Assembly (NCBI RefSeq): GCF_900221005.1
Contig: NZ_OBQI01000007.1
Coordinates: 62,001-126,000 of the forward strand
Direction: 5' to 3'
DNA length: 64,000 nt
Source: Blastococcus aggregatus
GTDB lineage: Bacteria > Actinomycetota > Actinomycetes > Mycobacteriales > Geodermatophilaceae
The translations under genes and the position numbers were made by a program. Below the pieces are notes generated by a model. That model saw nothing but the letters and a program-made list of their open reading frames with translations. It was not told the origin of the DNA and made no database searches. Shown here piece by piece: positions 39,626-62,248 of the stretch (within the stretch, counting starts at the first letter, position 1; each line of letters opens with the position of its first letter).

Positions 39626-39698
39626 TCCCTCGTAGCTCAATTGGCAGAGCATGCGACTGTTAATCGCAGGGTTACTGGTTCAAGTCCAGTCGGGGGAG
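39626..39698 (+). tRNA. tRNA-Asn (anticodon GTT)
   Basis: 73 nt, full cloverleaf. Acceptor stem TCCCTCG/CGGGGGA (one T-G pair), D arm TAGCTCAATTGGCAGAGCA, anticodon stem TGCGA/TCGCA around CTGTTAA giving anticodon GTT, and T arm ACTGG-TTCAAGT-CCAGT. CCA is not encoded. A strong terminator follows at 39705-39740 and a phage-type integrase begins 110 bp downstream, so the 3' end is a likely attachment site. Confidence 0.97.
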
Positions 39699-39704
39699 CA
39701 ACGT

Positions 39705-39808: not shown

Positions 39809-41032
39809 GTGGGCCGTCCACCGCTGCCCCTGGGCACCAGCGGCAAGGTCCTGTTCGCCACCATGCCCAATGGCATGGTCAAGGCCCGGGTCAAGTTCCG
39901 CGACCACGACGGCCAGGTCCGGCTGGTCTCCAAGACCGCGGCGAGCCGGGCCGCAGCCGAGCGGGCGCTGAAGGTGGAGCTGACCGTCCGCCGTTCCCCG
40001 GGTGGCACGGGTGCTCTCACCGCAGGCACGCGGGTGTCGGCGTTGGCCGAGGCCTGGCTGGCCGCCGAGCACGGCTGGTCGACCGGCACCGAGCGCACCT
40101 ACCGCTCGACGGTGCGCACCCAGGTGATCCCGGCATTCGGCCGGTTGTGCCTGCGCGAGATCACCCCGGGAACCGTGAACCGGGCGCTGACCAGGATCGC
40201 CCAGCGCAGCGGCTCGGGAGCGGCGAAGACGGCTCGAGCGTGTCTGTCGGGGATGTTCGCCCTGGCGATCGCGGACGGCGCGGTGACGTCCAACCCGGTG
40301 CGTGATGCCGGCGCCCGGTTGACCACGACCGCGAAGAAGGCGCCGCGGGCGCTGTCGGTGGAGGACGCCAGGCGGCTGGTCGAGCTGTTCCACTCGAGCC
40401 CACGGGCTGCCGAGCTGGACGTCGCTGATCTCGTCGACTGGATGCTCGCCACCGGCGCCCGGATCGGTGAGGCGTTGGCACTGCGGACCGGAAAGGCTGA
40501 TGGTCGGCCGCTGCTCGACCTGGACGCCGGCACGTGGGAGGTCAACGCCACCACGGTGCGGGTGCCCAAGCAGGGGATGGTCGTGCAGCCGCGGACGAAG
40601 ACCGCCGCCGGCTGGCGGATCGTCGCGGTGCCGGCCTTCGCCGTGGAGATGGTGCGCCGGCGGCTCGCGTCACCCCGGCGGCCGGACACCGCGCTGGTCT
40701 TCCCGACGCCGGTGTCCGGCACGCTGCGGGACCCGACGAACGTCTCCGCCGATCTGCGCCAGCTGTTTGACGGCTTCGAGTGCGAAGCGTGCGACGGAGC
40801 CGGCGTGCGGCCGGTGGCGGGTGGACGATCAGCCCGCTGCACGGAGGGGCCCTGGTCGTGGGTCACCTCGCATACGTTCCGCAAAACAGTCGCCACCCGG
40901 CTCGACGAAGCTGGCTTCACCCCGCGCCAGGTGGCCGACCAGCTCGGCCACGCCAACCCGTCGATGACCCTGGATGTCTACTTCGGCCGCCACGTGGTCA
41001 GCGCCGAGGCCGCTCGGGTGCTTGGTCGATGA
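39809..41032 (+). CDS. int: tyrosine-type site-specific integrase
   Basis: 407 aa. Arm-binding N-domain (MVKARVKFRDHDGQVRLV), SAM-like core-binding domain (about 75-165), and catalytic domain with Arg218, Lys264, His355-x2-Arg358, His381 and nucleophile Tyr391. Between Lys264 and the HxxR box there is an insert with Cys325-x2-Cys328 and Cys344 (FECEACDG, SARC), possibly a small zinc knuckle. GTG 39809 has GGAGGTG upstream. Position next to tRNA-Asn marks the left end of an integrated element. Confidence 0.93.
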   Translation: MGRPPLPLGTSGKVLFATMPNGMVKARVKFRDHDGQVRLVSKTAASRAAAERALKVELTVRRSPGGTGALTAGTRVSALAEAWLAAEHGWSTGTERTYRSTVRTQVIPAFGRLCLREITPGTVNRALTRIAQRSGSGAAKTARACLSGMFALAIADGAVTSNPVRDAGARLTTTAKKAPRALSVEDARRLVELFHSSPRAAELDVADLVDWMLATGARIGEALALRTGKADGRPLLDLDAGTWEVNATTVRVPKQGMVVQPRTKTAAGWRIVAVPAFAVEMVRRRLASPRRPDTALVFPTPVSGTLRDPTNVSADLRQLFDGFECEACDGAGVRPVAGGRSARCTEGPWSWVTSHTFRKTVATRLDEAGFTPRQVADQLGHANPSMTLDVYFGRHVVSAEAARVLGR

Positions 41033-48547: not shown

Positions 48548-48571
48548 CTGCTCATCGTCCCGGGCTCGTGG

Positions 48572-48598
48572 AACCCCGCCAACCCCGCCAACCCCGCC
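48572..48598 (+). repeat. 9-bp tandem repeat AACCCCGCC x3
   Basis: Three exact copies in tandem in the divergent intergenic region between the helical protein and the coiled-coil protein. Possible slippage-prone spacer; no gene in this frame. Confidence 0.9.
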
Positions 48599-48726
48599 AA
48601 CTGGGCACGGCCCGCGCCTGGAGCGCACCGGCGCACCGCGCAACCCGAGATGTGGAAGTGGATCCCTCGTCCACAGGACCGCCGCAGAAGCGTTCCGCCG
48701 TCATTACGTCGGTGCAGCTTTACGTT

Positions 48727-49935
48727 ATGAGCGACCCTACGGAAACGGAACGACGGATCTGTCGCTTTCCCGGCTGCCAGCGGCCGGCGGCGGCATCGCA
48801 TGCCGGGGCTGGCCGCCCGCCGGAGTACTGCGACGACAGCGCGCACAACCGGACCGCCGCCTGGCATGCACGCCGCCGACTGCGAGCGGCGCAGTCCGGG
48901 CACGCGCCCGGAGTCGAGTCGCGGCCGGTGGACGCTGCGCGGCAGCGGGCCGGTGAGTTGCACGGTCAGGTCGCCGGCATGGTCGAGCACCTGGGTGAGC
49001 AGCTGCAGGGGTTGCTCGAAGAGCTGCGGACCGTGGCCGATCCGGAAGCTGCCGAGCTGCAGATCGAGGCTGCGGCGAGTCAGGCGGCCGAGCAGGTGGC
49101 GACCGCCGAGGCGCGCGCAACTCGGGCTCAGCAAGCGCAACGGCGCGCCGAGGCCGAGCGCGCCGAGGCCGACGCCGCTGCGGAGGAGGCCTCTGCGCTG
49201 AGCGAGCAGCTCGGTACCGGGCTCGAAGAGACTCGCCAGCGGCTGGCGGAGGTCCAGGCCGAACGCGACGGGGCGATCGCCGAGCTGGCAGACTCCCACG
49301 CGGCTGCGGAGAAGAAGCTGCACAGGTCTGCTGCAGAGCTGGCCGAAATCTCACAGCGGCTGACCGTCACCGAGGCGCGGCTGGTCGAGGCGCACGATGG
49401 CGGGGACACCGCGACACAACGAGCCGAGGCAGCCCTGGTCGCGCAGTCCGAGGCAGAGCAACGCTTCCGCAACGCCGTCGAGCGGATCGAGGCCGAGTCG
49501 AAGCGCGCCGCCCGGGCCGAGGAGGCAGTGGAGTCGCTACGCCGGGACCTGGCGCTGGTCGAACGGCGAGCTATGGACCTGCATGAGGAGGTCGGCGATC
49601 TGCGCGGGAAGCTGGCGACGATGACCGCCCAGCGTGACGCCGCCGTTCGCGGCGCCGAACGCGAGAAGGCCCACGGTGAGCAGCGGGTCGACGACCTGCG
49701 TGCCGGTCACGAGGAGGAGCACCGCCGACTCCAGGCGGAGTTCGGCGGGCTGCGCGGTGAACTCAACGCCGCACGCGAGGAAGTCGCCGTGCAGCGCAGC
49801 AGAGCCGATCGGGCCGAAGCCCGACTCGACAGCACCCCCGTCGCACGTGAGACCCGGCGTCCCCAGTCGCCCGCCGGGCGTGGCAGGCGTCGAGGCGAGG
49901 GCACGACCCCGGGCGCCGACCAGACCGGCGGCTGA
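48727..49935 (+). CDS. coiled-coil protein with N-terminal Cys/His cluster
   Basis: 402 aa. The first 45 residues hold Cys12, Cys17, Cys35 and His40 (CRFPGCQRP, PPEYCDDSAHN), a possible zinc finger that reads like a plant-SBP or DksA-type knuckle but matches no named family. Residues 70-380 are an almost continuous Ala/Glu/Arg-rich coiled coil. Such proteins occur on actinobacterial plasmids and integrative elements and look like KfrA-type DNA-binding filaments. ATG 48727 has CAGCTT (48715-48720) 6 nt upstream. The role is inference. Confidence 0.7.
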   Translation: MSDPTETERRICRFPGCQRPAAASHAGAGRPPEYCDDSAHNRTAAWHARRRLRAAQSGHAPGVESRPVDAARQRAGELHGQVAGMVEHLGEQLQGLLEELRTVADPEAAELQIEAAASQAAEQVATAEARATRAQQAQRRAEAERAEADAAAEEASALSEQLGTGLEETRQRLAEVQAERDGAIAELADSHAAAEKKLHRSAAELAEISQRLTVTEARLVEAHDGGDTATQRAEAALVAQSEAEQRFRNAVERIEAESKRAARAEEAVESLRRDLALVERRAMDLHEEVGDLRGKLATMTAQRDAAVRGAEREKAHGEQRVDDLRAGHEEEHRRLQAEFGGLRGELNAAREEVAVQRSRADRAEARLDSTPVARETRRPQSPAGRGRRRGEGTTPGADQTGG

Positions 49936-50042: not shown

Positions 50043-50681
50043 TCAGGCAGCGGCCGCGAGCAAGAAGCCCACCGTGAGAGCAGGGCCGTACGGGATCGTG
50101 CTCCGACGGTCCCCGCCGCGCATCACGGTCACGACGGCCTGCGTCACGGTGATCACGGTGAACGCGGCGAAGGCCAACAGGAGCCCGCGAGGTGTGGCAT
50201 GCCCCAGGCCCAGCCCGCCGAGCGTCGCCAGGCGGACGTCACCGAACCCCGCTCCTGCGAACCGCCAGCACAGGAGCAACGTCAGCCCCGACGCCATCGC
50301 GGCGACGCCGCTGAGCGCCAGTCCCGGCCAGTCGCCGTGCACGGCCAGTGCCACGGTCAGCAGAGCGCAGGTCAGGACGCCGGCCTGCCGAACGAGTGCA
50401 GTCGGGATGCGCTGGGTGACCGCGTCGCAGCACGCCGCCGTGACGAGCGCACATCCCCAGAGCAGCAGGACGGGCGCGAGCTCCCAGATCCCCGTGCGTT
50501 GTGCCACCGCAACCGCCGCCGTCCCGGCCGCGATCCCGCCGAGAGCCCCCGCCAGACCCAGACCCCTGCTCGCGGCGTCCCGTCGCGCCAGCTGCGCGAG
50601 CCCGCGTGCCAGCAGCACGGGTGTGGCCGCCGCCCCGGTGACAACGGCTGCGACCACCACACCCAGCCACACAGCATCCAT
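50043..50681 (-). CDS. A24-family prepilin peptidase (TadV/CpaA type)
   Basis: 212 aa, about six transmembrane helices. The aspartyl protease pair is Asp86 (CCDAVTQRIPTAL) and Asp148 in GFGD (145-148), the GxGD signature. The N-terminal methyltransferase domain of PilD is missing, as in TadV/CpaA and other pilin-only peptidases. It should cleave the Flp pilin and TadE-like pseudopilins of the divergent operon after Gly. ATG 50681 chosen as the first residue before the first helix. Confidence 0.88.
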   Translation of the reverse strand: MDAVWLGVVVAAVVTGAAATPVLLARGLAQLARRDAASRGLGLAGALGGIAAGTAAVAVAQRTGIWELAPVLLLWGCALVTAACCDAVTQRIPTALVRQAGVLTCALLTVALAVHGDWPGLALSGVAAMASGLTLLLCWRFAGAGFGDVRLATLGGLGLGHATPRGLLLAFAAFTVITVTQAVVTVMRGGDRRSTIPYGPALTVGFLLAAAA

Positions 50682-50805
50682 GCGCGCCAGGTGCCTCCTC
50701 GCCGGACCGCGAACGACTGCTCCCATGCGCTGGCACCTCGTCTGCCGAGGCGCGGGGGAGCGGGCTGCGAGTGTGCGGCGCAGAAACCTGACAGGGCCTC
50801 GCGAT

Positions 50806-50865
50806 ACACCCATCTGGGGGACGACCGGCAGAGCCATCGTGACTCTGAGTCACCCGAATGGGTGT
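50806..50865. promoter_or_regulatory. nested palindromes upstream of the Tad operon
   Basis: GTGACTC-T-GAGTCAC (50839-50853) is a perfect 7-1-7 palindrome. It lies between ACACCCAT (50806-50813) and its inverse ATGGGTGT (50858-50865). The site is 48 bp before the lipoprotein start and 125 bp from the prepilin peptidase start, so it can control both divergent transcripts. Confidence 0.65.
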
Positions 50866-50912
50866 CATGGTGCTCGATGTCACACCGTGTTCACGGCGAA
50901 GAGGAAGTCTCG

Positions 50913-51560
50913 ATGCACGAACAGGCAGACCGGAAGCGGAGCGGAGGACGCGTGCAGGTGACGCGGACGGCGGTCACGGCAGCGGTTGCTGGCGTGCTCA
51001 CGGTCTCGGGCTGCTCGTCGTCCGGCGGTTCCTCGACTGCGCCGACTTCGACACCGACCTCGGGGTCGTCGTCGAGCGCCGCACCATCCGCGACCGATCC
51101 GGCCGACGAAGCACGAGCACAGGCCGTCGAGTTCGTCCCCACCTACGTCCAGACGATCGACGACCTCTACCTGGACCCGTCGCGCCCCCTCGACGACCTC
51201 TACGAGGTGGCCGTCGCGCCGGAGGCAACCAATCAGGCCACTGCCATCGGAACCTTTCGTTCGCAGGGCTACCGGCAGGTCGGGCGATCCCAGCTGGTGA
51301 CGGCGACCGCCGACAGCGTCGACCTCACGACCGATCCGGCGGCCTCGCCGTCACCAACGCTCCCGACCGTCGTGGTCACCGCATGTGTCGACGTGAGCCA
51401 GGTGCAGGCGACCGACGCCTCCGGGACTTCGGTCGTCCCCGCCGACCGCCCGAGATACCTCGTTGCACGGCTGACGCTGGTCAACCCGGACTATCCGGAC
51501 GCCTCCGGATGGCGGGTCAGCGAGGCTCCGAACAGGCAGGCGCAGTCATGCGACGGGTGA
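50913..51560 (+). CDS. lipoprotein, first gene of the Tad operon
   Basis: 215 aa. Basic N-terminus, hydrophobic stretch and lipobox VSGC (Cys near 39), then a Ser/Thr/Pro-rich linker and a domain beginning AQAVEFVPTYVQTIDDLYLDP. The domain resembles small extracytoplasmic NTF2-like domains of actinobacterial lipoproteins. ATG 50913 has GAGGAAG upstream. Its 3' end overlaps the next gene by 13 bp. It may be an outer component or pilotin of the pilus; not proven. Confidence 0.78.
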   Translation: MHEQADRKRSGGRVQVTRTAVTAAVAGVLTVSGCSSSGGSSTAPTSTPTSGSSSSAAPSATDPADEARAQAVEFVPTYVQTIDDLYLDPSRPLDDLYEVAVAPEATNQATAIGTFRSQGYRQVGRSQLVTATADSVDLTTDPAASPSPTLPTVVVTACVDVSQVQATDASGTSVVPADRPRYLVARLTLVNPDYPDASGWRVSEAPNRQAQSCDG

Positions 51561-52504
51561 CGGTCGCGCTGTCCGGGGCGCTGCTCGGCCTCTGCGTCCA
51601 AGGCGTGCACTCGGGCACGGCCATGGCCGACCCGGTCGCTTGCCAGCAGTTCAACTCGCTCGGCATCTGCGTGGTGGAGGTCGAGTCCGCTCAGCAGCCG
51701 AGAAGTCGGCCGGTCGCAGTGGGCTCCGGTGGCGGTGGTGGAAGTCAGGAGGCTTCGTGCACCCTGGACGCCACCGGCGCCGCCATACCCTGCCAGGAGG
51801 GCCCGTCGTGGTGGGTCCAGAGCTTGCAGTGCTACGCCCAGCCGATGCTCGAGCCACCGCCCAAGGACTCGCCGGTGTGGAGCGGGCACACCGACGGCAC
51901 CGTCTACCTGTGCACCTTCTACACGGACGGTGGGGCCTTTCCCGGCACGAACGGGTTCTCGTTCTGGTCGGCCACCGCGCCGGCCGGCCCCGCGGCCGTC
52001 GACCCCGCGGTGCTCGCCGAGCAGGCGCTGCGCACCCTGACCGTGCCTGAGCCGACGACCGGTCGCTACCCGGCCGGGACCATGCGGGATGGCCGGGCCT
52101 TCACCGTTGTCAACGCCTATACGTGGTTCTGGACCGACCCCGCATCGTTCCGAGCGCTGACCGCGCGGGCGGACGCCGGCGGCGTCTGGGCGGAGGTGAC
52201 GGTGACGCCAACCGCCTTGAGCTTCACACCCGGCGACGGGGCTGGTGCTGTCTCGTGTTCCGGCCCCGGGGCGGCCTGGCAGCGCGGCGACGGTGTCTGG
52301 GCTCCATCCCCGACGGGCTGCCAGTACCGGTATCCGCATTCGTCGATCCACCAGCCCGATGAGCAGGTGACGGCGACCTACGGCATCAGTTGGTCGGTCG
52401 CCTGGACGTCGTCGACAGGAGCGAGCGGCACTCTGCCGGACCTGACGACGACGTCGAACGCGACGTTCGCGGTTGCGGAGGTGCAGGCGGTGGTGACCGG
52501 GTGA
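51548..52504 (+). CDS. secreted cysteine-containing protein of the Tad operon
   Basis: 318 aa. Signal peptide (residues 1-27, cleavage after AMA-DP), then a short Cys pair segment DPVACQQFNSLGICVVEV, a low-complexity Gly/Ser linker and a Trp-rich beta domain with further Cys residues in probable disulfides. The C-terminal half (AYTWFWTDPASFRALTARA) recurs in proteins of similar actinobacterial loci. Function unknown; surface adhesin or pilus-associated protein is a guess. Translation is coupled on both sides by overlaps. Confidence 0.78.
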   Translation: MRRVTVALSGALLGLCVQGVHSGTAMADPVACQQFNSLGICVVEVESAQQPRSRPVAVGSGGGGGSQEASCTLDATGAAIPCQEGPSWWVQSLQCYAQPMLEPPPKDSPVWSGHTDGTVYLCTFYTDGGAFPGTNGFSFWSATAPAGPAAVDPAVLAEQALRTLTVPEPTTGRYPAGTMRDGRAFTVVNAYTWFWTDPASFRALTARADAGGVWAEVTVTPTALSFTPGDGAGAVSCSGPGAAWQRGDGVWAPSPTGCQYRYPHSSIHQPDEQVTATYGISWSVAWTSSTGASGTLPDLTTTSNATFAVAEVQAVVTG

Positions 52505-53220
52505 CAGCACAGGTAGAGGGGACGACGACGTTAGCCGGGCGTGCCGCGGCTCCGGTGCGTGAGGCGGCACCACCACCGGTCCCCACGCTGCGGAGCGCGG
52601 CGGCAAGGCGGCGCACCAGCCGCAAGTCACTGGTCCTGAGCCTGCTCGTCGTCCTGCTCGGTGGTCTGATCGCCTTTGCCGCCGGCCGGATGCTGACCGC
52701 CCAGACCGAGGTGCTTGCGGTCGCCCGGGACGTGCAGGTGGGCTCGACGATCGCCGCCGACGACCTGACGATCGCGAACGTCACCTCGGACCCCAACCTG
52801 TCACCCATCCCTGCGGCCCAGCAGTCCGAGGTCGTCGGGATGGTGGCGCAGGTCCCGCTGACCCGTGGCGAGCTGCTGACCCGCGCCCAGGTCGGCACGG
52901 GCACCGGACTCGCGGTCGGGGAGATGCTGGTGGCCCTGCCGTTGAAGGAAGGCCAGTTTCCCTCTCGCGGGGTGACGCCGGGGCAGCAGGTGCTGATCGT
53001 TCCGACTCCCGGTGCCGCGGGCTCCACCAGTGGGACCGATGCCATGGGCGGGACGTCCGGTCGGCCGACCGAGGCGACCGTCGCCGAGGTGGGGCCGGTG
53101 AACCCGGCCACCCAGGTGACGGTCGTCGACGTGCGGGTCCGTGAGGCCGAGGGTCCAGCGCTCGCCCAGCTCGCCTCCACCGGCAGTCTGGCCTTGATCC
53201 TGCTGCCGACGGGGCGGTGA
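52501..53220 (+). CDS. SAF domain protein (CpaB/RcpC-like)
   Basis: 239 aa. One transmembrane helix (about 42-62, RKSLVLSLLVVLLGGLIAFAAG), then the SAF domain: VAVARDVQVGSTIAADDLT-like sequence and AQVPLTRGELLTRAQV. CpaB/RcpC proteins sit in the periplasm or outer face of Tad machines and contact the secretin or cell wall. In Gram-positive organisms the partner is unclear. GTG overlaps the preceding stop by 4 nt. Confidence 0.85.
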   Translation: MTAQVEGTTTLAGRAAAPVREAAPPPVPTLRSAAARRRTSRKSLVLSLLVVLLGGLIAFAAGRMLTAQTEVLAVARDVQVGSTIAADDLTIANVTSDPNLSPIPAAQQSEVVGMVAQVPLTRGELLTRAQVGTGTGLAVGEMLVALPLKEGQFPSRGVTPGQQVLIVPTPGAAGSTSGTDAMGGTSGRPTEATVAEVGPVNPATQVTVVDVRVREAEGPALAQLASTGSLALILLPTGR

Positions 53221-53224
53221 TCGG

Positions 53225-54007
53225 GTGCTGACCGTTGTGGCCTCCGGCAAGGCAGCCCCCGGCGTGTCGACGTCGGCGTGGGCGCTGGCCTTGTGTTGGC
53301 CTCGACCGCTGCTGCTGGCCGACTGCGATCACGCGGGCGGCGATCTGGCGCCGGGGCTGCTGGCCGGACGGGTCAGCGTCGACCGTGGCCTGCTGTCCTG
53401 GTCGGCTGCCGCTCGTCGGGGGTTGCCGGCGACGGCGGCCGCCAAGCTGTTCGCCGAGCATGCGGTGCAGGTACCCGAGCATCCGCAGGTGTCGCTGATC
53501 CCCGGGTTCACGACGGCCACGCAGGGGGCGTCGTTCACCTCCGAGACGTGGGAGCGGCTCGCGCTGGCACTGCGCGCGTCCACGACCGCCATCGGCCGGG
53601 ACGTCGTGGTGGACGCCGGACGACTGGTCACCGATCGGGGATGTTGGCCGGTCCTGCGGGCCGCTGACCAGGTGCTCCTGGCGGTGCGGCCCAGCGTGCG
53701 GTCGGTGCACGCGGCACAGGACGCCGTGCGGCGGGTGCGTCAGGAGCTCGGTGACCTGGCGAGCGTGGCCGCGCTGGTGGTCGGGAACGGGCCGTACTCA
53801 GCCAGCGAGGTGGTCAAGGCGCTGCAACTGCCGCTCGCCGGCGTGCTGCCCTACGACCCCAGCGCGGCCGCTGCCCTCTCCGACGGGGCGGTCTCGAGCA
53901 TGAAGACGCTGCGGCGGTCCGCGCTGATGCGCGCGGCGTCGTCCCTGGCCGGCGAGCTGGCTGGCTCCGCCGAGGCCTCCTCGCTCGCTGAGGCGGTGGC
54001 CGGATGA
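53225..54007 (+). CDS. TadZ/CpaE-like MinD-family protein with degenerate P-loop
   Basis: 260 aa. The overall MinD/ParA layout is visible: an N-terminal strand VVASGKAAPGVSTSAWALAL in place of the deviant Walker A, LLADCDHAGGDLA as switch I-like Asp motif, and RDVVVDAGRL as Walker B. The Lys-Ser/Thr pair of the P-loop is replaced by Val-Ser-Thr (GVST), so ATP hydrolysis is doubtful. TadZ proteins position the Tad machine at the pole. It lies 4 bp after the SAF gene and overlaps tadA by 4 nt. Confidence 0.75.
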   Translation: MLTVVASGKAAPGVSTSAWALALCWPRPLLLADCDHAGGDLAPGLLAGRVSVDRGLLSWSAAARRGLPATAAAKLFAEHAVQVPEHPQVSLIPGFTTATQGASFTSETWERLALALRASTTAIGRDVVVDAGRLVTDRGCWPVLRAADQVLLAVRPSVRSVHAAQDAVRRVRQELGDLASVAALVVGNGPYSASEVVKALQLPLAGVLPYDPSAAAALSDGAVSSMKTLRRSALMRAASSLAGELAGSAEASSLAEAVAG

Positions 54008-55533
54008 GCCCCGAATACGCCCGGCCGCCCCGGTCGCCATCGTCGACAGCACCGGAGCTCCCGCAGGTCCCGACGCGCCCGCTGCTGTCCGGCCTCGGAG
54101 GCGACGTCCCAGGAGACGTGCCCCGGGCCAAGACCACGCCGTCCGATGCTGCGGACCTCACCGAGGTCGAGTATCGCGTCGTGGCGGAGCTGCGCGACCG
54201 GGTGTCGACGCGGTTGACGGCGGAGGACAAGAACTACGCGGCCGGTCCGCGTCGGGAACTGACCAAGAAGCTGATCCGCGACGAATACGACCAGTGGCTG
54301 CTGCACGAGGCCAACCGCGGCCGGGCCGTCCCCGCGGTGGCCACCGAGGACGGGATCTTCGCCGCGGTGCTGGCCGAGCTCGACGGACTGGGGCGGCTGG
54401 CGCCGCTGCTGACTCGGGACGACGTGGAGGACATCCACTTCGAGGGCTGCGACCCGACCGTGCTGCGCACGGTGGACGGCCAGCTGGTGGCCGGACCGCC
54501 GATCGCCTCCACCGACGAGGAACTTGAGCAGCTGCTGCGGTCGATCGGATCACGCTCGGACGGCGGGCAGACCAGCCGCGAGTTCTCCTCGGCCAGCCCC
54601 ATCCTCAACGTGCGTCTAAAGGGCGTCACCCAGCTGGGAGCTCGCCTGCAGGCCGCGATGGACGTGCTGCCCCGCCCGGCCGGAGTGATCCGGGTGCACC
54701 GCTTCTCCGACCCGAGCCTGGACGACCTGCACCGGCTCAACATGGTCGACTCACCGATCCGGGCCTTCCTGCGCGCGGTGATCGAGGCCGGCGTATCGCC
54801 GCTCGTGACCGGGGCGCCGGGCGTCGGCAAGACCACCCTGCTGCGCGCGCTCGGCAACGCGATCCCGTGGAACAACGTGGTCATCACCGTGGAGGACGAG
54901 CGTGAGCTGGGCCTGCACCTGCCGCGGTGGGATCCCGACCAGCAGCGACTGGTCAAGCGGCACGCCGTCTGCCGCCCCTTCGAGTCGCGGCTGCCCAACG
55001 CCGAGGGCAGGGGCGGATTCGACATGGGGGACGCCCTGCACCTGGCGCTCCGGGCCTCGCCAACCTGGGTGCTGGTCGGCGAGGTCCGCGGCGCCTACGT
55101 CACCTCCTTGCTGGAGGCCGCGACCAGCGGCATCGCCTCGGTGATGTGCACGATCCACTCCCCGTCGGCTGACGGCGTCTTCGACAAGGTCCTGATCAAC
55201 GCGCTCAAGGCACACCCGACGCCGTCACCGGAGCTGGTCCTGCGCTCGCTGGCCGCCCTCGGCCTGGTCGTGCACGTGCAGCGCGACCACGGCTACACCC
55301 GGTTCGTGTCAGGCATCTACGAACTGGGTGCGATCGGCGACTCCGGTCGCCCCGACCTCAAGCCGATCTTCGCGCCGCGACCCGACGACGGCCGCGCCCG
55401 GGCCACCGGGCCGGGGATGCTCAGCGACTCGCTGGCCGAACGTCTGACCGCGGTCGGCTTCGACCTGAACTGGCTGCACCCGGAGGCCTCCGACTGGCCC
55501 ACCGACCTCCGCCGGCAGGAGTGGGCGTCGTGA
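54004..55533 (+). CDS. tadA: TadA/CpaF family secretion ATPase
   Basis: 509 aa. An N-terminal helical domain (about 50-150) precedes the VirB11-like ATPase: GAPGVGKT at 270-277, the Asp box ITVEDERELGLHL, and GEVRGAY near 360 as Walker B/His-box region. It powers assembly of Flp pili or secretion from the cytoplasmic side, with TadB and TadC as membrane platform. ATG overlaps the tadZ stop and GTG of tadB overlaps its own, a tight operon. Confidence 0.93.
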   Translation: MSPEYARPPRSPSSTAPELPQVPTRPLLSGLGGDVPGDVPRAKTTPSDAADLTEVEYRVVAELRDRVSTRLTAEDKNYAAGPRRELTKKLIRDEYDQWLLHEANRGRAVPAVATEDGIFAAVLAELDGLGRLAPLLTRDDVEDIHFEGCDPTVLRTVDGQLVAGPPIASTDEELEQLLRSIGSRSDGGQTSREFSSASPILNVRLKGVTQLGARLQAAMDVLPRPAGVIRVHRFSDPSLDDLHRLNMVDSPIRAFLRAVIEAGVSPLVTGAPGVGKTTLLRALGNAIPWNNVVITVEDERELGLHLPRWDPDQQRLVKRHAVCRPFESRLPNAEGRGGFDMGDALHLALRASPTWVLVGEVRGAYVTSLLEAATSGIASVMCTIHSPSADGVFDKVLINALKAHPTPSPELVLRSLAALGLVVHVQRDHGYTRFVSGIYELGAIGDSGRPDLKPIFAPRPDDGRARATGPGMLSDSLAERLTAVGFDLNWLHPEASDWPTDLRRQEWAS

Positions 55534-56393
55534 CCGCCGGGATGCTGCTGCTCGTCCTCGCCGGGCTGCTGGTCTCCGGCGGTCTGGTCGTCGCGGTCGC
55601 AGCGGTCCGTGGGGTCGGCCCGTCCACTGGTTCGCTGTCCGTACGCCGTCCCCGCCGACGGCGCATCACGCCACTGCACCTCGGCGCCGTGGCAACCGGG
55701 GTGCTCGCGCTGCTGATCACCGGCTGGCCGGTCGCCGCGCTGGCCACCGCCGGCGGCGTCGTGTTCATCCCCAAGGTGCTCGGCGGCGGCAAGGCCGCCA
55801 AGCGGATGATCGCCACCTCTGAGGCGCTGGCGGACTGGACACGGCGGCTGGCGGACCTGATCAGCTCGGGCGCTGCCGGTTCGACCCGGGATGCGCTGCG
55901 CCGCTCGCTGAGCTCGGCGCCGGAGGCGATCGCGCCGGCGGTCACCAACTTGGTGACCCGGATGGGGCCTCAGGGCGTGGAGTCCGCGCTGCGGCAGTTC
56001 GCCCGTGAGGTCGACGACCCGGCCGCCGACAAGATCGCCATGGTGCTCATCCTGCGGGAGCGGAACGGCGGGCCAGGTCTGGCCGAGGTGCTCACCGCGC
56101 TGGCCGCAGACCTCGACGACCGCTCGCGGATGGTTCGCGAGGTGGAGGCCGAGCGCGCCAAGCCACGGGCGAACATGCGCACCATCGTGGTGGTCACCCT
56201 GGTCCTGGTCGTCGCGATGACGCTGTTCTCCCGTACCTTCCTGTCGGGCTACTCCACGCCTCTCGGGCAGGTGGCGTTGCTCTTGGACGTCGTGCTCTTC
56301 GGTACGGCGCTGCGGTGGATGCGCCGCCTGTCCGACCCGCCCCGGCCGCCGCGTGTGCTCGTCGACCCCGATCTGGTCACGGTGGACCGGTGA
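55530..56393 (+). CDS. tadB: TadB-like type II secretion F-domain membrane protein
   Basis: 287 aa. Two N-terminal hydrophobic segments, a cytoplasmic F domain (EALADWTRRLADLISSGAAG ... ALRQFAREVDDPAAD ... REVEAERAKPRANMRT), and two C-terminal helices (IVVVTLVLVVAMTLF; PLGQVALLLDVVLFGTAL). It forms the inner-membrane platform of the Tad machine with TadC. GTG 55530 is chosen because it overlaps the tadA stop (GTGA). Confidence 0.9.
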   Translation: MTAGMLLLVLAGLLVSGGLVVAVAAVRGVGPSTGSLSVRRPRRRRITPLHLGAVATGVLALLITGWPVAALATAGGVVFIPKVLGGGKAAKRMIATSEALADWTRRLADLISSGAAGSTRDALRRSLSSAPEAIAPAVTNLVTRMGPQGVESALRQFAREVDDPAADKIAMVLILRERNGGPGLAEVLTALAADLDDRSRMVREVEAERAKPRANMRTIVVVTLVLVVAMTLFSRTFLSGYSTPLGQVALLLDVVLFGTALRWMRRLSDPPRPPRVLVDPDLVTVDR

Positions 56394-57298
56394 CCGGGCT
56401 GCAGACGGCCACCCTGGCCGGCATGGTGGTGGCGCTCGGTCTCGTCCTCGCGGCCCGGGCGCTGCGTCCCGCGCCGCCGTCGCTGATCGCGGCGCTCGAG
56501 CAGCTCTCGGCCAGCCCGACCGCGGGAACCCTGCCCCCGCCGGGAACGACGTCGAACTCGGCGGGGCACCGGTGGACCTGGTTGCCGTCGGCGATGGTTC
56601 GCGTGGTCGAGGGACGCCTCGGCGTCCCCGATGCCGACCTGGCCATCCTCGGCCAGACCCGCAGTGAGCTTGCCGCGCGCAAGCTGACCCTTGCCCTCGC
56701 CGGGTTGCTCGCCCCCGCGGTGCTCGGCCTCGTCGCCGTGCTGGTCGACATGCCGGTGCCGTTCGTCGTGCCCGGCGCCGTCGGACTGGGGTTGGCTGCG
56801 GTCGGATGGCTGCTCCCGTCGGCCGAGGCCCGGGAGGCGGCGGGGAAGGCGCGGGCGGAGTTCCGCAGCAACTTGGAGTCCTTCCTCACCCTGGTGGCCG
56901 GCGAGCGCCGGGCGCGAGGCTCGGTGGAGCAGGCCCTCGAGGAGGCCGCGGAGATCTCGGGCAGCCTGCCGTTCGTCCGCATGCGGCGCGCGATCCGGCG
57001 CGCCGCGCTGTCCGGTCGTAAGCCCTGGAGCGACCTCCGCGACCTCGGTGACGAGCTCGCGGTTCCCGAACTGCGCAGCCTCGCCGACATCGCCGCGGTG
57101 GCCGCCGACGGGGCGTCGGTCTACAACACCTTGCTGGCCAGCGCCCGCACCCTCCGGCACGCCGAATTGTCCGATGCCCGCAGCCAGGCCAACGAGGTCA
57201 GCGAGCGGATGTCCCGCCCGCTGGCGCTGCTCGTCACCGGACTGACCTTGTTTGTCCTGGTCCCGTTCCTGCTCCGCATGTTCGCCGTCAGCACCTGA
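56390..57298 (+). CDS. tadC: TadC-like type II secretion F-domain membrane protein
   Basis: 302 aa. Hydrophobic segments at about 5-22, 100-135 and 280-298 flank the F domain (FRSNLESFLTLVAGERRARG, SVEQALEEAAEISGSLPF, ELRSLADIAAVAADGASVYN). It is the second platform protein. GTG overlaps the tadB stop by 4 nt; 22 bp separate it from the pilin gene. Confidence 0.9.
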   Translation: MTGLQTATLAGMVVALGLVLAARALRPAPPSLIAALEQLSASPTAGTLPPPGTTSNSAGHRWTWLPSAMVRVVEGRLGVPDADLAILGQTRSELAARKLTLALAGLLAPAVLGLVAVLVDMPVPFVVPGAVGLGLAAVGWLLPSAEAREAAGKARAEFRSNLESFLTLVAGERRARGSVEQALEEAAEISGSLPFVRMRRAIRRAALSGRKPWSDLRDLGDELAVPELRSLADIAAVAADGASVYNTLLASARTLRHAELSDARSQANEVSERMSRPLALLVTGLTLFVLVPFLLRMFAVST

Positions 57299-57577: not shown

Positions 57578-58045
57578 ATGCCTGGATCCCGTGCCCGGAG
57601 ACGCACCGCGGTACCGCCGTGCGGTGTGGTCGTGCGTCCAGGCCTGCCGAGCCGCGGTGGCGGGAGCGATCGGGGTTCGTCGAGCGTCGAGTTCGCCATC
57701 CTGTTCCCGATCATCGTCACTCTGCTGCTCGCCGGCCCGCAGCTGGCGATGTGGTACTTCGCCCGCGAAGCCGCCGACGCCGCCGCGCACGCCGGGGCGC
57801 GGGCAGCCAGCGTCAGCGGCGCGGCCGGGGGAGCGGGACAGGAAGCGGCCGACCAGTACCTGGCCCGACTCGGCACCGGCACCATCACCCGCTACTCGGT
57901 GGAGGAACAGGACACCGCCACCACGGTCACCGTCCACATCACCGCCGAGGTGCCCAACGTGATCCCGCTGCCCGGCTTCGCCCCGACCGTCGACGTCACT
58001 GTGACGCGCGGCAAGGAGCGTTTCACCACGCCGGACTCGCCATGA
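57578..58045 (+). CDS. TadE-like pseudopilin 1
   Basis: 155 aa. Prepilin-like site RG|SSSVEFAILFPII at 32-45 with Glu38 at +5, one hydrophobic helix, and a small extracytoplasmic domain. TadE-family minor pilins are processed by the prepilin peptidase and help assemble the pilus. The start at ATG 57578 is the best available; a later start close to residue 28 cannot be excluded. It overlaps the next gene by 4 nt. Confidence 0.82.
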   Translation: MPGSRARRRTAVPPCGVVVRPGLPSRGGGSDRGSSSVEFAILFPIIVTLLLAGPQLAMWYFAREAADAAAHAGARAASVSGAAGGAGQEAADQYLARLGTGTITRYSVEEQDTATTVTVHITAEVPNVIPLPGFAPTVDVTVTRGKERFTTPDSP

Positions 58046-58506
58046 ACCGTCGCCTGCAGCCGGTCACCGCTCCGACCGGCCCGCCGCGGAGAGACGACCG
58101 CGGCTCCGAGTCCGTCGAGCTGGCCATCCTGCTACCGGTCGGCATCCTGATCCTCGCGATGCTGGTGATCGGAGCCCGGATCGCACTGGCCGGCGACCGG
58201 ATCAGCGGCGTCGCCGGCATCGCCGCCCGAGACGCTTCGCTCGCCCGTTCAGCCAGCGCCGCTCAGCAAGTCGCCACGGCCAGCGCCACCGATGCGCTGA
58301 CCGACCGGAACCTGCACTGCGCCGACGTCCAGGTGCGGGTCGACACCACCGGGTTCACCAGCGCCCCGGGCGTTCCGGCGTCGGTCACCGTGACCGTGGC
58401 ATGCACCGTCGGCCTGTCCGACATCGGGGTGGCCGGACTGCCCGGCTCGCGCACCCTGCGTGACACGGCCACCAGCCCGCTCGACCCCGCCCGGGACCTG
58501 TCGTGA
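58042..58506 (+). CDS. TadE-like pseudopilin 2
   Basis: 154 aa. Leader of 21 residues, processing site RG|SESVELAILLPV with Glu26 at +5, one transmembrane helix and a beta-rich exterior domain with Cys in LHCADVQVRV. ATG overlaps the preceding stop; GTG of the next gene overlaps its own stop. Confidence 0.83.
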   Translation: MNRRLQPVTAPTGPPRRDDRGSESVELAILLPVGILILAMLVIGARIALAGDRISGVAGIAARDASLARSASAAQQVATASATDALTDRNLHCADVQVRVDTTGFTSAPGVPASVTVTVACTVGLSDIGVAGLPGSRTLRDTATSPLDPARDLS

Positions 58507-58931
58507 CCTGCCCGGGGCGGACCTGCGCCCAAGCCCGCGACGACGAGCGCGGGTCGGTGGCGGTCCTCTTCTGCTTCATCGTGCTGACCGCCAGCCTCCT
58601 GGTGACCGGCCTCGTGGACGCCGGTACGGCGATCCAAGCGGCCAACCGCGCCGACACCTACTCCGCCGAGGCGGCCCGGGCGGCCAGCATCGCGGTCGGC
58701 CCGGTCCCCACCGGAGGCAGCGCGGACGCCACGTTGGCCGTGACCGCCGCCCGCGACTACCTCGAGCAGGCCGGCGCGGTCGGCACGGTGAACGTCCTCG
58801 GCCCCGGCGTGGTCGAGGTCAGCGTGACCGTCACCGCCTCGACACCCCTGCTCGGCATCCCGGTCAGCCAGACCCGCACCCACACCGCGCAACTGCTGGT
58901 CGGCGTCACTCAAGGGGAGGGGTTGTCGTGA
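58503..58931 (+). CDS. TadE/TadG-like pseudopilin 3 without Glu+5
   Basis: 142 aa. N-terminal DERG|SVAVLFCFIVL resembles a prepilin site (Gly17) but the +5 residue is Leu, not Glu, as in TadG-type and Rv3654c-like proteins. One hydrophobic helix (about 20-40), then an exterior domain. It is the last of three pseudopilins and overlaps the LysM/SARP gene by 4 nt. Confidence 0.78.
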   Translation: MTCPGRTCAQARDDERGSVAVLFCFIVLTASLLVTGLVDAGTAIQAANRADTYSAEAARAASIAVGPVPTGGSADATLAVTAARDYLEQAGAVGTVNVLGPGVVEVSVTVTASTPLLGIPVSQTRTHTAQLLVGVTQGEGLS

Positions 58932-61900
58932 CCGCTCGCGCGGTCCGCCTCCTGAAGGCCGCGGGTGCGCTAGTCGTGCTCATCGCGGTCGTCGTCGGCG
59001 TTCCGCTGCTCCTCGCGGCCCTGCAATTGGTGCCGCACAGCCTGCCGTCCCTCGGCGAGGTCGCGACTTCGCTGAAGGTTCGAGACGACGGACGACTCGC
59101 CCAGATCGTCCTCGCTACGGGGGTATGGGTGTGCTGGGCGCTGTTCACGCTGTCGACCGCGGCAGAGCTGATGGGGCTGGTCCGCGACCGGCCGGCTCCA
59201 CCGCTGCCGGGGCTGCGGATCTTCCAGCGGCCGGCGGCCGCGCTGGTGACCGCGGTCGCCGTCGGTTTGACCGTCGCCCCTGCATTCGCCAGTGCATCCC
59301 CGTCCGGGACCGCATCTGCCCGGCCGCCGTTGCCGGTCGTGACCGTGTCCACTGGCCTGTCCGCGTCGGCGCAGCAGGACATCGGCGTCCGGGTCACCCA
59401 GACGGCGTCCGCGCACTCGACTCCGGAGGACCCGACTGCGACGCCCCCGACCTACCAGGTCCAGCGCCGAGACACCCTGTGGGCGCTGGCCGAGCGCTAC
59501 CTGGGCGACCCGCTGCGCTATCCGGAGATCGTCGACCTCAACGCTGCTGCCGTCGGTCCGGACAACGAGATCAACCCCGGCACGCTGCTGGTCCTGCCGG
59601 CGGACGCTTCCGGCCTGCCGCCGGCCGGGGGCGTCCCGGAGCCCACCGGCGCGAGCGTTGCCGAGGAGGTCACCGTCGAACCGGGGGACACCCTGTGGGA
59701 TCTCACGGAGGAGGTCACCGGGAGCGGTGAGGACTGGCGTCAAGCCTGGGAGTTGAACCGCGGACGCATCCAGCCGGGCGGAGCGACCTTCACCGATCCA
59801 TCGTTAATCCGGCCGGGATGGACGCTGAGCATCCCAAGGTCGGTGGACAGCCCCGAGCCCGAGCCGAGCCCACCGATACCGCCCGCACCTGCGCCTCGAC
59901 CGACGGAACCGCCCCTGCCGCCGTCCGGAGAAGCCCCGACGGCGTCCGTGCCGGCGCCGGACAACCCGCCCTCGACTCCGTCGGGAGCGGCCGCGCCGGA
60001 CGCCGAGTCGTCACCAACCCAGCAGAGCGAGTCCCCGACAGAGGACGGCGCACCCGAGTTGCCGATGGTCGCCTTCGCGGGTGGTGGGCTACTCCTGGCC
60101 GGTACCTCACTCGCTGCTCTGCTGCGCTATCGGCGACGCCAGTTCCGCCACCGCCGTCCCGGCCGGGTCATCAGCAGCACCCCGCCCGAACTCCTCGACG
60201 CCGAGCGGACCCTGCTGATGGCGGGAAGCGCCGGCAGCGCTGACGTGAGCTGGCTGGATCAGGCCTTGCGCAGCTTGGTGCACGGCTTGTCGACGGTCGA
60301 GGGCGCCCGGCTGCCCGACGTCGTCGCGGCGTGCACGACCGACGACGTCCTGACGCTGGTACTCGCGAGCCCCTCGCCGCAGGCACCGGAGCCATGGACC
60401 GTGGACTTCAATGGGACCCGCTGGTCGATCCGACGCGGCGACCCGCTGACCTACGACGAGCACCGGCGAACACGGTTCTTCGCCCCGTTCCCGACGCTCG
60501 CGTCCGTGGGTCACACCGCCGCGGGGGAGCACTGGCTCGTCGACCTCGAACGCGTCGGGGCCATCTCCCTGTCCGGCGACTCCGAGCGCTGCCTGAACCT
60601 GGCGCGGTTCCTCGCCGCTGAGCTGGCGCACAACAGCTGGTCGGAGATGCTGCAGGTGACCATGGTCGGCTTCGGCGAGGAGTTGGCCAAGATCAATACC
60701 GACCGGTTGACCTATTCCGAAGACGTCGAGAAGGCGATCGCGGCACTCTCCGGGAGGCTGGAGTCGGTCACGGACGCCATACGGGTTGCCGCCACCGACG
60801 TGCTCGGGGGCCGGCTGCACGACGTCGCGGCTGACGCTTGGGCTCCGCACGTGCTGTTGATCGCCTCGGACGCGGCCCAGGACGGCGACAGTCTGGCCGA
60901 GCTGGTGACTGCGATTCGGCAGCAGCCGGCCCGCAGTGCGGTCGCGGTGGTGCTGGTTCACGACACCGATCTCACCGACGACGTCCGCTGGCGGCTGACC
61001 ATCGACGACGACGGGGTTCTCCGCATCCCGGCACTGGACCTCGAGCTGATCGCCCAACAGGTCCCGGCCCACGAGGCCGCGCAGCTGGGTCAGGTGCTCG
61101 CCCTGGCGTCTGTCACCGAGGACCGGCCCGTCCCGCCGAGCCACGGCAACCAGTCCTGGGACGCGCACGCCGACGCCTGCGGCGGCCTACGCGTCGAACG
61201 AGCAGGCACTTCCCGGCGGGAGCGACCGGACTCTGTCGCGGCTGACGAGCGGTCACCGGGCCCGACGAAGAAGCCGCTGTCGACGACAAGCTCCGTGCTG
61301 CCCTTGCCCACGCAGAGCTACCTGGATCAGGCGGCGACGACCGAGCAGGACCTGCAGGCGCTGGCCCCGGCCACCGATGAGGGCATCCGGGGCCAGGTGG
61401 AGAGCGCCGATCCCGGCCTGGACGAAGACCTGGCCGACTGGGCCGACCCTTCCTGTCCCCGCCCCAAGTTGACGCTGCTCGGTCCGGTCCTGGTGCGCGC
61501 TCAGGGCTCGCTACCGGAGCGCAATCCGCGGCGGCAGTTCTACACCGAGATCGTCGCCTACCTGGCGACCCGACCGGGCGGCGTGACCAGCGAGCGCTAC
61601 GCCACCGCCATCTGGCCCAACGAGCCCGACGTCGTCGGCAAGACGAAGGTGCGCCAGTCCATCTCCGTCGTGCGGGCCTGGCTCGGCACCGATCCGGATA
61701 CCGGCGCCGACTTTCTGCCCTCCGGGCTCACCGCCGCAGCGGCGGGCCGGTACCGGATCGACGGCATGCTCATCGACGCCGAACTGTTCCGCCGACTGCG
61801 AGTCCGAGGCCTGGCGCGCGGAGCCGACGGCATCGCCGACCTGTGCGCGGCGCTCGACCTGGTCACCGGTCGCCCCTTCGACCTGCCGACCCAACGGCAG

Positions 61901-62248
61901 GGGGCCGTGGGCGGATATCGATGGCTAGTCGACGAAGACGGCCGGCTGGACCTCGAGTACGCGGCGATGATCGCCGACGTCGCCCACACGGTCGCCACCC
62001 ATCACCTCGCCGCTGGGCGGCCAGAGTTCGCGGCGGCCGCTGCGGAGGTGGCCCTGAAGGCTGAAAGCTACGAGGACACGCCGCTGCTCGACCTGGTCGC
62101 TGCCTGCGACGCGCAGGGCAACAGGGCTGAAGCAGACGCGTACGTCGCCCGCATCCTGGCCAACCATGACGCCGAGGTCGAAGAGGATCTGCCACCGAGA
62201 ACAGCCGAAATTCTCTTCCGACGCCAGTGGACCGGTCGAGCGAGCTGA
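58928..62248 (+). CDS. membrane-spanning LysM - SARP-type winged helix/BTAD protein
   Basis: 1106 aa. Order: three hydrophobic segments (about 8-35, 58-82, 102-122), LysM 1 at 176-226 (VQRRDTLWALAERYLGDP), LysM 2 at 246-302 (VEPGDTLWDLTEEV) and a Pro/Ser-rich stalk (300-378). A further transmembrane helix (about 380-400, followed by RYRRRQFRHRRPGR) precedes a large region with LSGDSERCLNLARFLAAEL near 540. From 847 comes a SARP-type winged helix (LTLLGPVLVR, GVTSERYATAIWPNEPD) and BTAD (950-1095). LysM binds peptidoglycan outside; winged helix/BTAD is the DNA-binding and activation module of AfsR/SARP regulators. It is translationally coupled to the Tad genes. Confidence 0.88.
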   Translation: MTARAVRLLKAAGALVVLIAVVVGVPLLLAALQLVPHSLPSLGEVATSLKVRDDGRLAQIVLATGVWVCWALFTLSTAAELMGLVRDRPAPPLPGLRIFQRPAAALVTAVAVGLTVAPAFASASPSGTASARPPLPVVTVSTGLSASAQQDIGVRVTQTASAHSTPEDPTATPPTYQVQRRDTLWALAERYLGDPLRYPEIVDLNAAAVGPDNEINPGTLLVLPADASGLPPAGGVPEPTGASVAEEVTVEPGDTLWDLTEEVTGSGEDWRQAWELNRGRIQPGGATFTDPSLIRPGWTLSIPRSVDSPEPEPSPPIPPAPAPRPTEPPLPPSGEAPTASVPAPDNPPSTPSGAAAPDAESSPTQQSESPTEDGAPELPMVAFAGGGLLLAGTSLAALLRYRRRQFRHRRPGRVISSTPPELLDAERTLLMAGSAGSADVSWLDQALRSLVHGLSTVEGARLPDVVAACTTDDVLTLVLASPSPQAPEPWTVDFNGTRWSIRRGDPLTYDEHRRTRFFAPFPTLASVGHTAAGEHWLVDLERVGAISLSGDSERCLNLARFLAAELAHNSWSEMLQVTMVGFGEELAKINTDRLTYSEDVEKAIAALSGRLESVTDAIRVAATDVLGGRLHDVAADAWAPHVLLIASDAAQDGDSLAELVTAIRQQPARSAVAVVLVHDTDLTDDVRWRLTIDDDGVLRIPALDLELIAQQVPAHEAAQLGQVLALASVTEDRPVPPSHGNQSWDAHADACGGLRVERAGTSRRERPDSVAADERSPGPTKKPLSTTSSVLPLPTQSYLDQAATTEQDLQALAPATDEGIRGQVESADPGLDEDLADWADPSCPRPKLTLLGPVLVRAQGSLPERNPRRQFYTEIVAYLATRPGGVTSERYATAIWPNEPDVVGKTKVRQSISVVRAWLGTDPDTGADFLPSGLTAAAAGRYRIDGMLIDAELFRRLRVRGLARGADGIADLCAALDLVTGRPFDLPTQRQGAVGGYRWLVDEDGRLDLEYAAMIADVAHTVATHHLAAGRPEFAAAAAEVALKAESYEDTPLLDLVAACDAQGNRAEADAYVARILANHDAEVEEDLPPRTAEILFRRQWTGRAS

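Follow-up and report, generated by a model that had tools for sequence, protein, structure and literature searches.

Several of the closest described systems to the locus analysed here lie on actinobacterial plasmids. PAGK_2369, encoded near the end of the Tad locus of the Cutibacterium acnes plasmid pIMPLE-HL096PA1, was listed in 2013 with Pfam LysM and BTAD domains (E 3.1e-10, Table 2 of PMC3666418), and the combination of the two in a plasmid Tad locus is thus already known; the protein was labelled 'TadB, Flp pilus assembly protein', and the available text discusses neither its topology, nor an FtsK-like fold, nor its function. The surface fraction of plasmid-carrying C. acnes was reported in 2017 to contain a putative Tad pilin subunit; the available part of that paper attributes conjugation-type genes to the same plasmid, discusses Tad loci as adhesins, calls the link between Flp pili and conjugation unclear and cites the tad locus of Micrococcus luteus as required for transformation (PMC5696575). 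Type II/IV ATPases, pilus assembly proteins and peptidoglycan-binding proteins of the linear plasmids of Rhodococcus erythropolis NI86/21 were described as conjugal transfer proteins, in a main text that does not use the word LysM and whose available part shows no LysM or SARP analysis (PMC12915292). For a conjugative Rhodococcus plasmid, a LysM-like protein is mentioned as a presumed murein endopeptidase (PMC6794481, as far as its text was available). Here we analyse LysM-SARP, a protein encoded at the end of a Tad operon in a window of 64,000 nt (positions 62001-126000 of contig NZ_OBQI01000007.1, hereafter C11) of the 4.62-Mb genome of Blastococcus aggregatus. It shares with PAGK_2369 the place near the end of a Tad locus and the LysM and BTAD parts. 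We favour, with moderate confidence, its interpretation as a hub that spans the cell envelope and belongs to a Tad pilus of mobile elements, the gene being the last, translationally coupled component of a Tad locus on actinobacterial elements. An initial annotation of this DNA had known of no described function for such a protein, and the openly licensed literature searched, in the parts accessible, describes none.

Architecture of the LysM-SARP protein

The frame (Table 1) is stop-free. As the initial annotation had stated, its GTG overlaps the last pseudopilin stop; the TadG-like gene and the frame have 4 nt in common. To compare the protein across relatives, we used an alignment of 26 LysM-SARP sequences (A1), including the window protein and a Cutibacterium modestum plasmid relative (L010). 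Pfam matched LysM in all 26, in the window protein with E 6.5e-10 over two stretches. Hydropathy gave four membrane segments in the window protein, the last of which has 7 K/R among the 15 residues after it and none before; the membrane segment after LysM carries such a positive-inside flank in 26/26 sequences (5-8 K/R behind, 0-2 ahead). The hydropathy of the other sequences resembles this pattern, with an extra segment listed in L031, L040, L042, L045, L008 and L020, and with segment 2 missed and one added at 463-481 in L049. By a rule-based call from hydropathy and K/R flanks, four membrane segments are predicted, with the LysM domains outside and the FtsK-like, winged-helix and BTAD parts inside, together with both termini.

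The frame, the LysM domains, the SARP-like C-terminus and the Tad neighbours of the initial annotation were thus borne out, as was its placement of LysM and SARP-like parts on opposite sides of the membrane. It had claimed a single transmembrane helix near residue 380, which corresponds to the segment at 378-396, but three additional segments are predicted upstream, and it had missed the FtsK/TcpA/EccC-like fold at residues 412-730. It had also offered a prediction of both ends on one membrane side as grounds for rejecting its topology; with both termini inside this holds to the letter, but not in its intended meaning, since the LysM and SARP-like parts are predicted on opposite sides of the membrane.

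The FtsK-type fold lies just inside a membrane segment and is shared with the EccC, FtsK and TcpA motors, from which the LysM-SARP version differs by the absence of Walker A, a motif kept in 0/26 sequences. A weak match to FixH (E 0.16) was dismissed because it falls within this domain. Over the first 18 of the 26 rows (the eight omitted being from plasmids and own-genome copies), mean column identity was 0.76 for BTAD, 0.69 for the winged helix and 0.58 for both LysM and the middle domain. Conservation peaked in BTAD and the acidic tail, of which residues 1079-1093 are invariant among the 18; residues 563-577 of the FtsK-like domain formed another peak.

The C-terminus, annotated initially as a winged helix and BTAD at 847-1095, was matched by Pfam BTAD or Trans_reg_C neither in the window protein nor in any of the 26 sequences, and for this reason we call it SARP-like rather than SARP; in a test of six proteins, a Micrococcus homologue alone passed the BTAD cut-off of Pfam (23.5 vs 22.1 bits). 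Searching 177,635 PDB sequences with a profile of the 26 C-terminal regions returned EmbR first (E 0.0041), a designed helical-repeat protein second (0.08) and AfsR third (0.096). For the C-terminus a model was predicted whose confidence is moderate (mean pLDDT 68, with most of the winged helix below this value). In Foldseek its first four ranks went to EmbR and AfsR (E 1.3e-3 to 7.7e-3, probability 1.00), with no match below E 0.001, a poor superposition (TM score ~0.42, rmsd 12-13) and a TPR protein directly after (8.1e-3). VIA-align of this model returned TPR proteins for residues 105-267, in a comparison that barely covered the winged helix; BTAD is itself TPR-like. The profile and fold rankings therefore point to the order that defines a SARP, winged helix followed by BTAD, on a model of moderate confidence, and in this respect the initial assignment stood, the silence of the two Pfam models apart.

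LysM-SARP resembles AfsR and EmbR in the winged helix and BTAD fold and in largely retaining the phosphate-contact arginines. It differs in that its SARP part is membrane-tethered by prediction, stands C-terminal in a four-part protein and has its base-reading residues replaced; AfsR and EmbR are soluble, and the SARP family is known for soluble members. ToxR and CadC have an N-terminal winged helix and one membrane segment. A cytoplasmic winged helix joined across the membrane to an outside domain is common to these proteins and LysM-SARP, in which, however, the winged helix is C-terminal and follows four predicted segments. The difference in domain order and segment number weighs against the ToxR/CadC-like signalling of the initial annotation.

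The Tad locus and its mobile element

TadA, TadB/C, TadE/G-like pseudopilins, a SAF protein and a prepilin peptidase identify the operon upstream as a Tad locus, the Pfam scores of the pseudopilins and the peptidase being below cut-off. Of 30 LysM-SARP genes, 21 share 4 nt and three share 1 nt with the end of the gene before them; a gap of 8-33 nt separates the two genes in another three, and the last three had no usable frame. Where several starts were possible the analyst picked one, so that this count leans toward translational coupling. Core-type genes stop at a dnaG-like gene (by eye) and the tRNA-Asn, next to which lies the tyrosine integrase, and this integrase family stands beside the dnaG-like gene in 7/10 upstream regions compared. 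The element then runs through cargo, the Tad operon, the LysM-SARP gene and further cargo to type IV secretion system (T4SS) genes and a MobF relaxase. The transfer genes lie right of the window on the same contig, with VirB6-, SCO6880-, VirB4-, M23- and VirD4-type genes at C11 ~140.5-150.8 kb and the relaxase at C11:160265-165835; this copy was labelled VirB4 from its resemblance to the plasmid gene and from weak NCBIfam matches, of which even the best (4.7e-11) is far below cut-off, with no Pfam match. Integrase, MobF relaxase and VirB4-, VirD4- and VirB6-like genes are those of a T4SS-based integrative conjugative element. Described actinobacterial elements of this class likewise share the integrase, a MobF/TrwC relaxase and VirB4- and VirD4-like genes; in the main text of that paper LysM is absent and 'Tad' occurs in a place name only (PMC3218068).

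The relaxase (1856 aa) contains a DnaG-type primase and Toprim region besides its TrwC and helicase parts. Formate-dehydrogenase-like proteins and a transporter (by eye) are encoded at C11:127455-133433, where they separate the LysM-SARP gene from the T4SS block. In relatives the cargo between the backbone parts differs on both sides of the Tad operon and includes, by eye, metal-efflux-like genes. A phage origin was rejected (1/50,697 phage records matched, in the LysM stretch only), as was a role in defence (no PADLOC match among 5 proteins).

The same pairing recurs within the genome, which has six LysM-SARP genes (matched in seven rows, as the C5 gene appears in two pieces) and six VirB4-like genes, each on the same strand and 6.5-37 kb downstream of a LysM-SARP gene. 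Tad genes lie upstream in 6/6 copies, and MobF-like genes near four (C11a, C5, C4 and C6); none was found near C8 (92-150 kb covered) or in the stretch covered around C11b. For the three other, distant TadA-like genes (29-34% identity), no LysM-SARP match lies in the vicinity. The copies C4, C6, C8 and C11b (e.g. L018, L022, L020 and L005) form a second type of Tad, LysM-SARP and T4SS block, their LysM-SARP being ~40% identical to that of the window and each block being preceded by an XRE-type gene (by eye) together with conserved DNA that looks like a promoter. The C5 copy (L016) is 71% identical to the window protein and, by eye, nearly identical to L031 of Candidatus Blastococcus massiliensis AP3.

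Among other genomes, some of them draft assemblies, the closest relatives among the matches belong to Blastococcus and neighbouring genera. The Tad linkage expected by the initial annotation was found in 26/30 genome loci and in all 11 annotated plasmids examined; in those of Micrococcus and Curtobacterium, extra genes separate the Tad genes from the LysM gene. The four loci without Tad genes comprise two partial protein matches (L050, L052), one at a contig edge (L046) and one with 2.6 kb upstream (L051); L050 and L052, from Geodermatophilus, have no Tad match in their flanks and are perhaps decayed copies. T4SS-block genes fell inside the 10-kb flank of 11/30 loci, in one of which a ParA-like gene stood alone. 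A VirB4-like gene was found in 20/22 genomes searched (8/8 and 12/14). Its position was checked in eight of them, and in each a copy follows the LysM-SARP gene by 12-44 kb, sharing its contig and strand; gene order was examined in three. In the B. aggregatus genome and its relatives, the carriers thus appear to be T4SS and relaxase elements, that is, integrative conjugative elements. LysM-SARP also matched 205 of 72,556 plasmid records, two of them over 80% of the query, and the six plasmids with the closest VirB4 (60-63% to P0002), to which that comparison was confined among 482 with a VirB4-like match, all have a LysM-SARP match; two of the six are Pimelobacter records near-equal in length and match.

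Table 1. Annotated features of the window, in window coordinates
Feature	Position	Strand	Basis or remark
tRNA-Asn (gtt), presumed attachment site	39626..39699	+	same tRNA in 6/8 relatives
Tyrosine integrase of element	39809..41032	+	Pfam Phage_integrase 8.6e-13
Coiled-coil protein, KfrA-like by eye	48928..49935	+	in 4/10 upstream regions compared; weak sub-cut-off Pfam on 48568-49935
Prepilin peptidase (TadV-like), divergent	50043..50660	-	Pfam Peptidase_A24 1.3e-5, 26.0 bits (cut-off 26.5) on 50043-50507; longer start taken
Conserved palindromic site GTCACCCGAATGGGTG, candidate operator of Tad operon	50849..50864	+	
hyp1, conserved Tad-operon protein, lipoprotein-like by eye	50952..51560	+	homologues in plasmids and other copies; no Pfam match
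hyp2, conserved Tad-operon protein, secreted-looking by eye	51557..52504	+	homologues in plasmids and other copies; no Pfam match
SAF-domain (CpaB/RcpC-like) protein, possible start 52390	52690..53220	+	Pfam SAF 2.3e-9 on 52390-53220
CpaE/TadZ-like, labelled by position	53225..54007	+	36%/127 aa to same-place hypothetical protein of pYJNG; ParA match far below cut-off
TadA-like ATPase (T2SSE)	54004..55533	+	Pfam 1e-19; NCBIfam TadA 4.5e-35, below model's cut-off
TadB-like (T2SSF)	55521..56393	+	Pfam
TadC-like (T2SSF)	56390..57298	+	Pfam on frame 56315-57298
Small putative Flp-type pilin, 78 aa	57321..57557	+	position and sequence by eye
TadE-like pseudopilin 1	57626..58045	+	34% to annotated TadE/TadG of pYJNG
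TadE-like pseudopilin 2	58042..58506	+	41% to annotated TadE of pYJNG
TadG-like pseudopilin	58503..58931	+	Pfam Tad/TadE weak, below cut-off; 32% to annotated Tad-domain protein of pYJNG
LysM / FtsK-fold / SARP-like membrane protein, 1106 aa	58928..62248	+	GTG overlaps preceding stop by 4 nt
Predicted membrane segment 1, residues 14-32	58967..59023	+	hydropathy
Predicted membrane segment 2, residues 57-75	59096..59152	+	hydropathy
Predicted membrane segment 3, residues 103-121	59234..59290	+	hydropathy
LysM 1, residues 176-224, predicted outside	59453..59599	+	Pfam
LysM 2, residues ~246-303, predicted outside	59663..59836	+	second Pfam stretch, NCBIfam match 246-266; limits by eye
Predicted membrane segment 4, residues 378-396, K/R-rich stretch after	60059..60115	+	hydropathy just at threshold
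FtsK/TcpA/EccC-like fold without Walker A, residues ~412-730	60161..61117	+	
SARP-like winged helix, residues 846-950	61463..61777	+	profile and fold searches; contact residues
BTAD-like helical domain with conserved acidic tail, residues 951-1095	61778..62212	+	

DNA contacts and the upstream palindrome

As a reference for DNA contact we used AfsR, which binds direct repeats, reading bases with R92 and T88 and contacting phosphates with R94 and R87 (PMC10936776, in the part available). At the corresponding positions of the 26 LysM-SARP sequences, R94 is retained in 25 and R87 in 20, R92 in none and T88 in one; of the other contact residues, W74 is retained in 19, S91 in 16, P79 in 4 and K95 in 2, Q48 lying outside the count. 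EmbR has N at the R92 position of the alignment, so the loss of R92 is compatible with DNA binding. The recognition helix is basic in 25/26 sequences (the exception being L053) and carries +4 in the window clade; its conservation among the 18 sequences ranked 151 of 1092 alignment windows, in the top 14%, without forming a peak.

The region 50682-50912, proposed for binding by the initial annotation, includes the palindrome GTCACCCGAATGGGTG, which sits between the divergent prepilin peptidase gene and hyp1. Both flanking genes were detected in 21 of the 30 loci, the remaining nine being unusable, and in all 21 a best match of 13-15/16 positions lies 84-127 bp ahead of the first gene. The exact form GTCACYCGANNGGGTG is present in 16 of these 21 loci and in the window and C5 copies; it occurs twice in the whole genome, both times upstream of the window's Tad type, and with one mismatch allowed 18 matches were found vs 3 for a reversed control. 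The count in the window alone is weak (one match vs 0.11 expected, at least one match in 10/100 shuffles), and it is therefore the conservation across loci that carries weight. An RNA structure was rejected as explanation, the leader folding no better than shuffles (z +1.05), and Rfam over 39500-64000 matched the tRNA only. The other four own-genome copies have a partly similar conserved stretch before their XRE-type gene (by eye). A dimeric regulator is the likeliest owner of the palindrome.

Proposed role of the protein in pilus and transfer

The interpretation of LysM-SARP as an envelope-spanning hub draws on the positive-inside flank in 26/26 sequences, the SARP fold, the start overlaps, the pairing with VirB4 and MobF and the conservation of BTAD and tail. 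Computation supports a protein with four predicted segments, LysM outside and an apparently inactive FtsK-like domain and SARP-like part inside, with a position at the end of the Tad operon and pairing with conjugation blocks in its own genome. In such a protein, LysM would grip the cell wall and anchor the pilus machine, and cytoplasmic partners, for which the TadA ATPase and the conjugation apparatus are candidates, would bind to the inactive motor-like domain and to the acidic-tailed BTAD; co-translation with the pseudopilins, suggested by the start overlaps, would set the amount of LysM-SARP. The pilus would probably serve cell contact or DNA transfer of the element, a role suggested by the pairing with conjugation genes.

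Several observations weigh against this interpretation. The basic recognition helix and kept phosphate-contact arginines exceed the needs of a pure docking role. No right end could be located for the window's element: a second direct copy of the tRNA-Asn 3' end (at least 20 nt, exact) is absent from C11:100000-269999 of a contig ending at 273061, where a shorter core would escape, and a candidate near 170716 (17/19 nt, inverted, E 8.6) was judged a chance match. VirB4-like genes had no match in two of the 22 genomes (G009 and G022) and one weak match (7e-11). PLSDB types the 205 matching plasmids as 161 non-mobilizable, 42 mobilizable and 2 conjugative, with Paenarthrobacter aurescens pTC1 and Nocardioides pNOCA01 in the conjugative class; pYJNG, non-mobilizable by this typing, has an annotated MobF relaxase, which indicates that the typing misses cases. 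T4SS annotation is absent within 11-14 kb in 7/11 plasmids (three of Streptomyces and one each of Rhodococcus, Micromonospora, Micrococcus and Curtobacterium), one of the seven having an FtsK-type translocase and one a DUF87 protein, so that the tie is to mobile elements generally; and with 482 plasmids matching the VirB4-like protein vs 205 matching LysM-SARP, the two are separable.

Three other explanations were weighed, and the confidences are not mutually exclusive, the hub leaving a regulatory function open. Quite possible, if short of probable, is a purely structural wall anchor or platform whose winged helix and BTAD are protein-binding surfaces without signalling. The conservation peaks at BTAD, the acidic tail and 563-577, the loss of Walker A, the altered base contacts and the translational coupling to pseudopilins all agree with it, but the winged helix is well conserved (0.69 vs 0.58 for LysM) and its recognition helix basic in 25/26 sequences. 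Alternatively, LysM-SARP may be a one-component membrane transcription factor: its LysM domains would detect peptidoglycan or whether the pilus is occupied, and its tethered SARP part would switch on the Tad operon or transfer genes, perhaps through the palindrome at ~50849. The SARP fold found by profile and Foldseek, R94 and R87 kept in 25 and 20 of 26, the +4 recognition helix of the window clade in the top 14% of conservation, the palindrome in 21/21 loci with its two exact genomic occurrences, and the fact that LysM-SARP is the only protein of the conserved block with a detected helix-turn-helix speak for it. We nevertheless find it doubtful: base contacts are mostly lost (R92 in 0/26, T88 in 1, K95 in 2, P79 in 4), the sites of AfsR are direct repeats and the conserved site a palindrome, the recognition helix shows no conservation peak and is non-basic in L053, and the XRE-type gene (by eye) beside a partly similar conserved stretch in the four other own copies is a simpler owner.

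It is unlikely, in our judgement, that the locus makes an ordinary adhesion pilus carried incidentally on islands and plasmids and functionally unconnected with transfer. The available text on Cutibacterium plasmid Tad loci, which discusses adhesins and calls the conjugation link unclear (PMC5696575), and the majority of matching plasmids typed non-mobilizable would fit such a pilus; against it, all six own copies and the eight position-checked genomes pair the locus with conjugation genes, and the three other TadA-like genes lack LysM-SARP. A bolder conjecture, which we put forward as improbable, is that conjugative elements of actinobacteria bring their own Tad pilus as a transfer contact apparatus, the LysM/inactive-motor/SARP-like protein being a membrane sensor of pilus engagement or wall state that switches pilus or transfer genes.

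Returning to the envelope-spanning hub, conjugation in monoderms is generally thought to be pilus-free. Here Tad genes repeatedly accompany T4SS and relaxase genes, and their locus closes with a protein predicted to reach from wall to cytoplasm. This raises the question of whether a contact pilus is built that reports to the cytoplasm, and the protein might link pilus or cell-wall state to gene transfer. The pairing counts bear on the link between Flp pili and conjugation that the available text on C. acnes left open (PMC5696575). A membrane-tethered SARP, if true, would be a new mode for a regulator family known for its soluble members.

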